This document shows positions 18,668-22,667 of a DNA stretch of 40,363 nt, piece by piece. Each line of letters starts with the position of its first letter. The stretch's first letter is position 1. A program made the translations under genes and the position numbers. Source of the DNA: Chthoniobacteraceae bacterium (GTDB taxonomy: Bacteria; Verrucomicrobiota; Verrucomicrobiia; Chthoniobacterales; Chthoniobacteraceae); NCBI GenBank assembly GCA_947476045.1, contig CANJNZ010000041.1, positions 1-40,363 of the forward strand. The letters run 5' to 3'. A model generated the notes under the pieces. It was not told where the DNA came from. It was given only the letters and a program-made list of their open reading frames with translations, and did no database searches.

Positions 18668-19612
18668 ATGTTCACGCACGACATTGATCCGATCATCGCG
18701 ACGCTCGGTGGGATCCACCTCTGGTGGTATGGCCTAAGTTACTCCCTCGGGTTCCTCAACGCCCACTTCTTCGTCCGTCGCCACCGTGGCCAACTCGGTC
18801 TGTCAACTCAGGCAGTCCTCGACCTTAGCCTGCTGCTGGCCGTTGGCGTTCTGGTAGGCGGACGTCTGGTGCAGATCGTGTGTTACGAATGGCCGTTCTA
18901 CAGTGAGCATCCGGAATTCGCTTCGGCATTCTGGCTTGGTGGAATGGCCACGCACGGATTGATGCTTGGCGGCCTCTTCGGCGTCTGGGCCTTCGCGCGT
19001 CTCCACGGGAAATCGTTCCTCGAAACTGCGGACGTCCTCGCGATTCCCGGGGCCTTCATTCTCGGCGTTGGCCGCCTGGGCAACTTCATTGACGGACAAA
19101 TCGTCGGCAGCGTCACCAGCGCATGGTGGGCGGTCAAATTCCCTGACGCGGACGGCTTCCGGCACCCAGTGGTGCTCTACGACGGATTGAAGAACCTGCT
19201 CATCATTCCGCTGCTTGCGCTCCTGGCGCGCCGTCGTCCACCCGCAGGTGTGCTCACCGGCGCGTTCCTCTTCCTCTATGCGTTCCCGCGCATCCTCGTG
19301 GATATCTTCCGCGAATATTCGACGACCCTTCTCGGCATCCCCACCGGTCAGAGCCTGAACATTGCGATGTCCGTCGCCGGCCTCGCGCTGTGGTGCGCGC
19401 GGCGCAACTCCCCGCAGTCAGCGCGGGCGGCGACGATGGACAAAGAATCAGCACACGGACAGGGATGGCGTCGCGCGGCTTTCACCGCGCTCCTCGTCTT
19501 CTCCCTCACGATGCCGAGTGATTGGACTCAGGACGTGCCCCAACGCTACGGCAAGCGTCACCCCGGCCTCGTGCATTCGTCAATATACCCGGCCATCGGC
19601 GCACGGAATTGA
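18668..19612 (+). CDS. Lgt-like prolipoprotein diacylglyceryl transferase homologue
   Basis: A 314-residue multi-pass membrane protein. Lgt landmarks are IHLWWYGLSY (16-25), GGMATHG (91-97, canonical G-G-M-S-F-H-G), GRLGNFIDGQ (135-144) and HPVVLYDG (166-173). Lgt transfers diacylglycerol from phosphatidylglycerol to the lipobox cysteine of prolipoproteins. Relative to the E. coli signature (recalled, GRLGNFINGE), this one has D and Q at the two last variable positions. R208-x3-D212 replaces the usual R-x3-E. So it may be a divergent paralogue with another lipid substrate rather than the housekeeping enzyme. It has about 60 extra residues at the C-terminus. Third gene of the operon. Confidence 0.85.
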   Translation: MFTHDIDPIIATLGGIHLWWYGLSYSLGFLNAHFFVRRHRGQLGLSTQAVLDLSLLLAVGVLVGGRLVQIVCYEWPFYSEHPEFASAFWLGGMATHGLMLGGLFGVWAFARLHGKSFLETADVLAIPGAFILGVGRLGNFIDGQIVGSVTSAWWAVKFPDADGFRHPVVLYDGLKNLLIIPLLALLARRRPPAGVLTGAFLFLYAFPRILVDIFREYSTTLLGIPTGQSLNIAMSVAGLALWCARRNSPQSARAATMDKESAHGQGWRRAAFTALLVFSLTMPSDWTQDVPQRYGKRHPGLVHSSIYPAIGARN

Positions 19613-19691: not shown

Positions 19692-21017
19692 TTAGCGTTT
19701 CGCTTCGCCAAGTCCGCTGAGCGGTGAGGTGAAAAGCATATTCGGGTTGTTGCCGAGCATGGTTTGCGGGAATGATCCGTTCCATCGCTCGACGCGGGCC
19801 TTCTCCACTTCGAGCGCGCGGATTTGCATGAGCAGCGGGCCGCTGTTGGCGACGGCTTTGTTCACGAGTTCGATGGCGTCGGCCTCGGCTTTCGCTTCGG
19901 CGAGGCGTGCGTCAGCCTTGCCCTGCGCTTCGCGACGGAGTTTTTCGGCGGTGGCGTTGGCTTCGAGTTCGATGCGTTCGTTCTCCTTTTGTTGCGACTC
20001 GAATTTCGCGGCGCTGACGACTTTCAACTGCTGCGCGATGAAGGTCTCATCAATCGCTTTTTGGATTGCCGGGTTTTCATACGTCATGCCGCCGAACATG
20101 CCGACAGTGGTGACGGTGATGCCGCGCTGTGTGAAGAACGCCATCACGTCCTTCTTCACCGCATCTGCGATTTCCTGCTTTTTGCTTCGCAGTGAATCGA
20201 GAGGGTATTTCGCTGCGACCTCGGCGGCGGCTTGCTGGATGCGCCCGCGCACTTCGGTGTCCATGACGTTGGCGAGGCTGCCGCTCGGATACCAATAAAG
20301 GAACGAAGCGGCTTCCTTTTCATCAATGAATGCGGTGCAGGTGAAGCCCATGCTGAAGCCCACGCTGTCGGCGCTCTCAACCCAGATGGCTTTGTCGCCG
20401 GTCGCGTGTTTACCCTCGGCAGTCCATTCGCGCGTGACGGGCGAGCGGTTCACTTTCACGAGGCGCACGAGCGGGAGCCAGCGACCGTCGTTGCTGAAAC
20501 GGCCTTCTTGATTCCAGCGGTGCGTGATCTGGATGCGCTTGGCGGCTACTTTCCGCTCCTGCAAGTAGTCCACGCTTTCAAAGCGGGCCTGCTTGGCGCT
20601 GTCGCCTTCGAGCGGGATGAGGAAGCCCGTTTCGCTGGTGTCTATCTCGACGTATTCAGGTTTGTCGTAACTCTTCACGCAGCCGCCCAACGCAAGCGCG
20701 AGCAATACGACAGGCAGTGTGCGCGTGATGCGACGAGCGGCGCGGTTTGCGCTACACGCACGCAGCAACGCGAAAATGTAGGGCTTTACCCACCATGTGA
20801 GAGTGGCGGCGATGATGCCTTGCGCCAGAAAGTTTGGCCACTGGTGCAAGGCGTGCCATGTGAGCAGTTCGCGCCATTGCTCTTCGCCGCCGTTGACTTG
20901 GGCGATGGCGACATTGCTGCCGGTTTGAGGTTGCGCGAGCACGAGCCAGGCTGTGTTGGCGATGGACGCGGTGGTGATAAGGCCCGCTGCGAGCAGGCCA
21001 CGACGTGTATTGTTCAT
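19692..21017 (-). CDS. Band 7/SPFH-domain membrane protein with internal lipobox
   Basis: A 441-residue protein from the ATG at 21017. Residues 1-90 hold two hydrophobic segments (about 8-28 and 63-86). Then comes LPVVLLALALGGC (101-113), which looks exactly like a lipoprotein signal and lipobox placed internally. From about 120 to 340 it matches an SPFH/prohibitin domain (QITHRWNQEGRF, VMDTEVRGRIQQA, GITVTTVGMFGG). A charged Ala/Glu/Lys-rich coiled coil of the flotillin type follows (345-410: NATAEKLRREAQGKADARLA). SPFH proteins scaffold membrane microdomains and regulate membrane proteases. A c-di-AMP riboswitch lies in its 5' leader. A non-ATG start near residue 90 would give an ordinary lipoprotein; I cannot decide between them. 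Confidence 0.85.
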   Translation of the reverse strand: MNNTRRGLLAAGLITTASIANTAWLVLAQPQTGSNVAIAQVNGGEEQWRELLTWHALHQWPNFLAQGIIAATLTWWVKPYIFALLRACSANRAARRITRTLPVVLLALALGGCVKSYDKPEYVEIDTSETGFLIPLEGDSAKQARFESVDYLQERKVAAKRIQITHRWNQEGRFSNDGRWLPLVRLVKVNRSPVTREWTAEGKHATGDKAIWVESADSVGFSMGFTCTAFIDEKEAASFLYWYPSGSLANVMDTEVRGRIQQAAAEVAAKYPLDSLRSKKQEIADAVKKDVMAFFTQRGITVTTVGMFGGMTYENPAIQKAIDETFIAQQLKVVSAAKFESQQKENERIELEANATAEKLRREAQGKADARLAEAKAEADAIELVNKAVANSGPLLMQIRALEVEKARVERWNGSFPQTMLGNNPNMLFTSPLSGLGEAKR

Positions 21018-21148
21018 TTTCTGATTTGTCTGTGTTGCCGCGCCCGCGCGCCGCCGGCGTATTTTTCCGCCGACGCACGTGCGCGATGATGTGCAGGCAT
21101 CAGTTGGCCCGCGCGCCGCGAGTGCGGCCACGGTATCCCCTAGGACAC

Positions 21149-21307
21149 CTTCCCTCTGCCGGCGGAGTTAGCTGACGGGCTCGGTGAAGGAAGTCACCGG
21201 GCGGCCATTTGGCTGGCCACCTGCGCCCCTGGTCTCGGTTTGGACCCGAGACCCTAACTTGGGTCCCCCGCGCCACGCTCTGTAGAAGGAGCGCGACTTA
21301 GGCGACG
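21149..21307 (-). promoter_or_regulatory. c-di-AMP riboswitch (ydaO/yuaA class)
   Basis: Read on the minus strand, this segment carries the conserved blocks of the ydaO/yuaA aptamer in order. These are GTCGCCTAAGTC at the 5' end, GCGGGGGACCCA, several stable hairpins (GGTCTCGG/CCGAGACC; GGTGGCC/GGCCGCC; CGGTGA/TCACCG), then CCCGTCAGCTAACTCC, and GGCAGAGGGAAGG at the 3' end. The GTCAGCTAACTCC and GGCAN-GGAAGG blocks are the hallmark of this class, which binds cyclic di-AMP and usually turns genes off. It sits 131 bp before the Band 7 start codon, in the same direction and after the DadA-like stop, so Band 7 is the target. The expression platform between 21018 and 21148 is GC-rich without an obvious terminator. 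Confidence 0.87.
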
Positions 21308-21428
21308 TGAATCATCGTGTCTGCGCGACGGGGTGCAACGAGAATCGTATCGTCGCGAAAAAATGATGTGCGGTTGGCACGAGGAGGCGGTTTGGTCGCT
21401 GAAAATCGGGTGCAATATTTGCTGGCTG

Positions 21429-22667
21429 CTACCCGTAACGCTCAGGGTCGAGCAGGGAGAGATTGATCGCAGGCTGTTCGCGCATGAAGACATCCGCCAT
21501 CAGTTTGCCGGTGATGGGCGCGAGGCTCAGGCCCATCATCGCGTGGCCTGTGGCGGTTGAGAGATTATCGTAGGTTTTGATGCGGCCGATAAAGGGCATC
21601 CCATCCGGCGAACATGGGCGAAGACCGACCCACGGTTTCACGTCTGCGAAATCCTCCGGCGAAAAATGCGGGTAGTAGCGCGATACAACTTTCACGATTC
21701 CGGCGACCCGCCGCGCGTTGATCGTTTTATCCAGTCCGGCGATTTCCATCGTTCCGCCGAAACGCAGCGCGCCGTCCATCGGCGTCACAGCCACTCGAGC
21801 CTCGGTGAAAATCGCGCACAACTGCGGCAGCTCACGCGGCTTCGCGAGCGTGAGTGAGTAGCCTTTGCCCGCTTGCATCGGCAGTTGGACGCGCAGACCT
21901 CGCAAAATGCCGGGTGACCAAGCACCGCCGCACAGCGCAAATTCGTCCGCCTCCATCTCGCCGCGCGAAGTCTCTACTGCCAACACGCGCCGCCTTTCGG
22001 TGCGCCAGCCCTTCACCTTCATGTCGTCATGAAAAGTGACACCCATTTTTTCCAGTTCCCCGCGCAGCGCCGCCATGAACCGCTCCGGCGAAAGATGGCA
22101 GTCCTTTGGAAAATACACGCTGCCCGCGATGTCCATCGTCACCGCCGGATCGAGTGCCGCAGTCGCTTTCGCATCGAGCACCTCTGCCGGAACACCGAGC
22201 GCATTCGCCGCCACCGCCACGCGCGCTTCTTCGTCGAGCGCATGTTGTGTTTTGCAAAGCATCAGCAGCCCGCGTTTCACGAGGCCGAAGTCGAGCGACG
22301 CCGCGAGTTCCTCAAACAGCGCGCGGCTCGCGAACGACAAATCGCGAATCACCGGCGCACACCGCTCGACGTGCTCCTTTGTCGAGGCGCGCATGAATTT
22401 CCACGCCCACGCCGCGAGTTCCCAATCCAAACGCGGCTTGATGTAAAACGGCGACTCGGGATTCCACATCCACTTGAGCCCCATCGCCACCATCCCCGGC
22501 GCAGCGAGCGGCGTGAAATGCGACGGCACAATCATCCCCGCATTTCCAAACGAACATCCGCCGCCGCCGCGATCCACCACGCTCACGCGCAGCCCGCGCT
22601 TCGCCGCATAATACGCCGTCGAAAGCCCGATGACGCCGCCGCCGATGATGAGGACGCGCTTTTCCAC
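21429..22667 (-). CDS. FAD-dependent D-amino acid dehydrogenase-like oxidoreductase
   Basis: A 412-residue protein of the DadA/DAO family. The N-terminal FAD-binding motif is VLIIGGGVIGLSTAYYAAKRG (GxGxxG at about 9-14), followed by an Asp ending the second strand (VSVVD). Further family blocks are GNAGMIVPSH, the AGKGYSLTL segment and, near the C-terminus, WVGLRPCSPDGMPFIGR and TGHAMMGLSLAPITGKL. It oxidises amine substrates such as D-amino acids or glycine-like compounds; a cytoplasmic or membrane-associated site is likely. The start lies 6 bp from the stop of the phosphatase upstream, so the two are co-transcribed. The exact substrate is open. Confidence 0.9.
   Translation of the reverse strand: MEKRVLIIGGGVIGLSTAYYAAKRGLRVSVVDRGGGGCSFGNAGMIVPSHFTPLAAPGMVAMGLKWMWNPESPFYIKPRLDWELAAWAWKFMRASTKEHVERCAPVIRDLSFASRALFEELAASLDFGLVKRGLLMLCKTQHALDEEARVAVAANALGVPAEVLDAKATAALDPAVTMDIAGSVYFPKDCHLSPERFMAALRGELEKMGVTFHDDMKVKGWRTERRRVLAVETSRGEMEADEFALCGGAWSPGILRGLRVQLPMQAGKGYSLTLAKPRELPQLCAIFTEARVAVTPMDGALRFGGTMEIAGLDKTINARRVAGIVKVVSRYYPHFSPEDFADVKPWVGLRPCSPDGMPFIGRIKTYDNLSTATGHAMMGLSLAPITGKLMADVFMREQPAINLSLLDPERYG

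Follow-up and report, generated by a model that had tools for sequence, protein, structure and literature searches.

A c-di-AMP riboswitch in front of a gene for a predicted SPFH/Band 7 lipoprotein in Verrucomicrobiota

The ydaO/yuaA riboswitch class is well known, its recorded targets lying mainly in potassium and osmolyte transport and in cell-wall remodelling. The 40,363-nucleotide stretch of DNA from a Chthoniobacteraceae bacterium analysed here as a whole, hereafter the window, raises the question whether an aptamer of this class also serves a gene for a membrane scaffold protein of the SPFH/Band 7 superfamily and what c-di-AMP would do to that gene. A cmscan of the window against all Rfam families returned RF00379, the c-di-AMP/ydaO aptamer, as the sole match, covering positions 1-134 of the 134 positions of the model with 49 bits against a gathering cut-off of 38 (E 1.5e-8; Table 1). 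The earlier note had read a ydaO/yuaA aptamer from the minus strand at 21149-21307 and had named the RF00379 covariance-model threshold as a check; the span lies inside the match, the blocks it listed are the conserved core, and the score exceeds the threshold over the full model. Across the source genome (4.37 Mb in 123 contigs, 96.8% complete) RF00379 is found only once (E 3.8e-10). Among 22 loci the core blocks GC..AA, CGGGGGA.CC, GGGG.G and CCCG.CAGCU.AC are invariant or nearly so, with one core position altered throughout the clade (U to C in GGGGUG).

Table 1. Positions of the aptamer, its leader and the downstream gene in the window
Feature	Positions	Strand	Basis
c-di-AMP riboswitch aptamer (RF00379)	21145..21314	-	cmscan and stem covariation in relatives
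Aptamer-to-start leader, presumed expression platform	21018..21144	-	sequence; blocks and hairpins kept within the genus; presumed mechanism
AGGUGUC, genus-invariant 3' tail of the aptamer, can pair with GAUGCCU	21144..21150	-	RNAalifold, six congeneric leaders
GAUGCCU, genus-invariant, putative pairing partner of the AGGUGUC tail (21144-21150)	21095..21101	-	RNAalifold, six congeneric leaders
Two copies of an element with complementarity to the P1/P3 3' strand of the aptamer	21050..21075	-	21065-21075 and 21050-21059; the copies can pair with each other
Gene for an SPFH/Band 7 protein (predicted lipoprotein), 441 aa, sole downstream gene	19692..21017	-	Pfam Band_7, AlphaFold2 model, start alignment
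Codon of Cys113, lipobox cysteine (LGGC)	20679..20681	-	counted from the ATG at 21017

The gene behind the aptamer starts with the ATG at 21017, matching the start of its homologues, so that the aptamer lies 127 nt upstream. A small upstream ORF (ATGCCTGCA...) overlapping this start was considered and discarded, its frame not being kept among relatives. The FAD-dependent oxidoreductase gene on the same strand (21429-22667) terminates before the aptamer, and lgt (18755-19612), the first gene on the downstream side, runs convergently, which makes the SPFH/Band 7 gene a single-gene unit. We confirm the proposal that a Band 7 gene is the only downstream gene, Pfam Band_7 scoring 27.7-27.9 bits in the 441-aa protein against a cut-off of 23.6. 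Searching solved structures with the single sequence gave no match, and a profile search gave weak prohibitin matches only. An AlphaFold2 model built from 23 sequences reached a mean pLDDT of 74.9, with values of 84-92 over most of residues 211-300, and replaced a model from seven sequences with a pLDDT of 52. It resembles prohibitin, HflK/C, stomatin, erlin and flotillin structures (Foldseek E as low as 2.4e-10; Z 10-13), and the modelled SPFH fold with its coiled coil places the window protein in the SPFH/Band 7 superfamily. An identity as HflK was rejected, with 23.7 bits against the NCBIfam equivalog cut-off of 159.4.

With HflK/HflC, prohibitin, stomatin and QmcA the window protein has in common the SPFH fold, the long coiled coil behind it and the membrane helix directly ahead of the SPFH domain; unlike these it has two further membrane helices at its N-terminus and a cysteine in a lipobox. 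The lipobox LGGC with Cys113 ends the third membrane helix and agrees with the pattern [LVI][ASTVI][GAS]C; it is preceded by the two extra helices, which are conserved, in place of an N-terminal signal peptide, and the cysteine is invariant in 23 homologues. This suggests an SPFH protein anchored by a lipid, with two additional helices at its N-terminal end. A lipobox in an internal position, here closing residues 1-113 (20679-21017), is uncommon and could point to cleavage into two proteins. Members of the SPFH/Band 7 superfamily form large ring- or cage-shaped oligomers organising membrane domains; judged by its family, the window protein may likewise organise membrane microdomains.

The earlier note had suggested looking for the same pair in relatives. 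It recurs at 22 of 24 verrucomicrobial-type SPFH loci with an intact 5' end, which carry RF00379 above cut-off, and the aptamer also stands before genes of a second SPFH family. In a sample of 197 genomes of the order, RF00379 is present in 48, and a close SPFH homologue (E < 1e-70) was found in nine genomes from three families, all nine having RF00379 above cut-off just 5' of the homologue on the same strand. An independent collection contained 27 SPFH loci, 19 of them new, and 13 of these 19 have RF00379 above cut-off. Two further loci (L151 and L152) show sub-threshold matches at the correct position (30.7 and 26.7 bits); their records are labelled Proteobacteria, yet they are similar to the remaining verrucomicrobial-type loci. 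Three loci (L163, L169 and L170), in which either the leader or the gene's 5' portion is missing, fall outside the count of intact 5' ends, and a family member from a CPR genome, Candidatus Vogelbacteria (L165), has no RF00379. Taken over these genomes, the linkage of aptamer and SPFH gene in Verrucomicrobiota is strongly conserved. Shadow ORFs aside, no other flanking gene is found again beyond a handful of related SPFH loci, and a functional link of the adjoining lgt to the SPFH gene was discarded because no neighbour is kept in relatives.

The same SPFH lipoprotein family extends to phages: PHROG 200, annotated as 'lipoprotein' and grouping phage members, matches the window protein by sequence with E 1.2e-29, and gp65 of the giant Bacillus phage G (L172) is 44% identical from the lipobox on; the gp65 gene, unlike the window gene, has no c-di-AMP riboswitch nearby. 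In two congeneric MAGs (L084 in G437 and L086 in G391) the SPFH frame is interrupted by a frameshift or stop with the riboswitch being intact, reflecting either assembly error or decay.

Conservation extends to the paired stems, which the earlier note had named as a further check. We aligned 22 aptamers, representing 21 distinct sequences, over 33 pairs in six helices. Among the 21 distinct aptamers 96.2% of the cells are paired, and 20 of the 33 pairs show compensatory changes, both partners having changed. Covariation scored 0.561, compared to 0.216 for shuffled alignments and at most 0.114 with the partners slid, and none of 500 shuffles scored as high. By this measure of covariation the aptamer structure is under selection.

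A ligand would be available in the cell. The genome encodes a CdaA equivalog (229.6 bits against a cut-off of 188.8) in a gene adjoining one that reads, by eye, as folP, and a 7TM-HD phosphodiesterase of the PgpH type. The earlier note had suggested looking for a DisA-type cyclase: a cyclase gene is present, its type being CdaA and not DisA. Judged from this gene content the host is able to make c-di-AMP. The motif of CdaA usually written DGA reads DGG (HDGGLIV; L002, 1153-2034), with GLRHRAA being kept. TrkH and Kup were searched for in the same genome and neither was found.

Our preferred explanation, to which we assign a probability of roughly 80%, is that a c-di-AMP riboswitch in the leader of a single gene lowers expression of the SPFH lipoprotein as part of the potassium/osmotic response. 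With enough potassium and turgor, CdaA would make c-di-AMP; this would bind the leader RNA, closing aptamer P1/P3, and expression of the SPFH gene would drop. Upon potassium shortage or osmotic up-shift c-di-AMP would fall and the SPFH protein would be made, alongside potassium importers, which in related genomes stand under riboswitches of the same class, probably to scaffold or protect envelope proteins of the inner membrane. Points against this explanation are the two sub-threshold homologues, the lack of the riboswitch in the CPR and phage G members and its lack on most large SPFH genes of the order.

How the leader would transmit binding was approached from its sequence. Beyond the aptamer, the window's leader has no hairpin with a U-run and thus no clear intrinsic terminator, which makes regulation at translation initiation or through Rho likelier than simple termination and leaves the direction of control unreadable from the leader. 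The AGGUGUC tail and its proposed GAUGCCU partner are invariant, so that their pairing has no covariation support inside the genus; in many other lineages a GC-rich hairpin is flanked by a tail GGG.GAUC and its pairing partner GGUC.CCC, a like arrangement with a different sequence. For the P1/P3-complementary element, the duplex energy compared to shuffles gave p 0.02-0.06 in five of six congeneric leaders, which are related and not independent, making this support weak, and the element was not seen in most other lineages. We rejected a leader-aptamer switching helix common to all relatives; it is supported in the genus of the window only, and weakly.

The reverse sign, an ON switch by which c-di-AMP raises SPFH expression and the protein is made at high potassium and turgor, for example restraining channels or protecting the envelope at low osmolarity, would fit the missing terminator 3' of the aptamer and the MFE fold of the leader, in which part of the aptamer 3' strand pairs with a downstream element and which the ligand would break. 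We consider it unlikely, since known members, kdp and kimA, are turned off by c-di-AMP (PMC6488665) and the class serves potassium importers in the same genomes, where an OFF switch makes sense. By analogy to these known members, and in view of the regulon shared with potassium importers, control of the SPFH gene most likely acts at translation or by Rho and in the OFF direction.

The clade-wide core substitution raises the further possibility of a variant class that keeps the aptamer fold and binds another ligand, leaving the SPFH gene outside c-di-AMP control; the moderate score of 49 bits and a consensus of GGGGCG(A/C)A in the GGGGUGAA block would be in line with it. The same C-for-U exchange of the GGGGUGAA block, however, is found in 65 of the 73 RF00379 matches of the phylum, including those 5' of potassium transporters, giving no grounds to suspect a different ligand, and with the remaining core invariant and CdaA present we regard such a variant as highly improbable. 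A chance resemblance or dead remnant, as might be imagined in a short leader of a high-GC genome, is refuted by the E-value, the single match in 4.37 Mb, the linkage at 22 of 24 loci and the covariation. On these sequence grounds the window aptamer is a genuine, ordinary c-di-AMP aptamer that would be expected to bind c-di-AMP in this species.

Compared to the ydaO/yuaA class as a whole, the window element shares the core sequence, all six helices, its place in the leader 5' of a gene for a membrane protein and a c-di-AMP-making genome. It differs in its target, an SPFH scaffold protein instead of a transporter or wall enzyme, in having no evident intrinsic terminator and in the C for U described above, the last being common to nearly all matches of the phylum. 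Described examples of the class are kimA in Bacillus subtilis and kdpFABC in B. thuringiensis, and predicted c-di-AMP riboswitches 5' of ktr, trk, kdp and kup are already known in phyla including Verrucomicrobia (PMC6488665). Outside the gene lists of the original c-di-AMP riboswitch paper, our literature search, in which papers naming both c-di-AMP and flotillin were judged by title and abstract, retrieved no link of c-di-AMP, its riboswitch or ydaO with SPFH/Band 7 proteins, nor one of the riboswitch with membrane microdomains. An SPFH target class appears unrecorded for c-di-AMP riboswitches. As aptamer and SPFH gene stay together in many species, the c-di-AMP (potassium and osmotic) response would seem to have a branch in membrane organisation that has not been recorded before, for which the window offers a clean system of one riboswitch and one gene outside any operon.

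The window gene is not the only SPFH gene under this riboswitch class. We took a census of the best downstream ORF of 73 RF00379 matches from the phylum and the order and found 34 APC-type permeases, nine SPFH proteins of the window type, eight large SPFH proteins, six beta-barrel porins (BBP2), five Kup and three TrkH, with single targets including KdpA, an antiporter of the sodium/hydrogen-exchanger family and citrate synthase. Outside the SPFH genes most targets thus appear to be potassium importers (KimA-like, Kup, TrkH, Kdp). Those APC-type permeases tested from one subgroup carry AA_permease_2, and one permease (L009) matches the solved potassium importer KimA with E 4e-55; a large second permease subgroup gave no Pfam or PDB match. 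The large SPFH proteins with RF00379 5' of their genes (about 600-690 aa; L082, L091, L029 and L095-L099) come from several families and show no detectable pairwise similarity to the window type. Their protein tree needs at least two changes of the riboswitch label, so that SPFH genes gained or lost the riboswitch more than once. The riboswitch is not general among them: a riboswitch on all large SPFH genes was rejected, only three of about 16 well-matched genes in the order, and two of six of the shorter kind in the class sample, having one. Two genomes (G391 and G527) each carry one SPFH-linked and one Kup-linked RF00379 copy, and another (G513) has one copy linked to a large SPFH gene and one to a permease.

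These observations lead us to propose, tentatively and at slightly less than even odds, that c-di-AMP controls membrane scaffolding in Verrucomicrobiota, at least three SPFH lineages, i.e. the lipoprotein type and two large kinds, having separately come under the riboswitch class of potassium importers. If separate recruitment to the class that serves KimA-like, Kup, Trk and Kdp importers is true, the scaffolds would work directly with the potassium or turgor machinery. The phylum-wide SPFH link, repeated with unrelated SPFH genes, provides a sequence-level reason to ask for a role of bacterial SPFH proteins in potassium or turgor control, which is a general question for flotillin-like proteins. 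Beta-barrel porin genes (BBP2, OmpL-like) with RF00379 5' of them (L034, L041, L044, L075, L080 and L102; family f2) are another target outside the usual list, and in one genome (L101, G148) an RF00379 match of 86 bits stands 5' of the citrate synthase gene.
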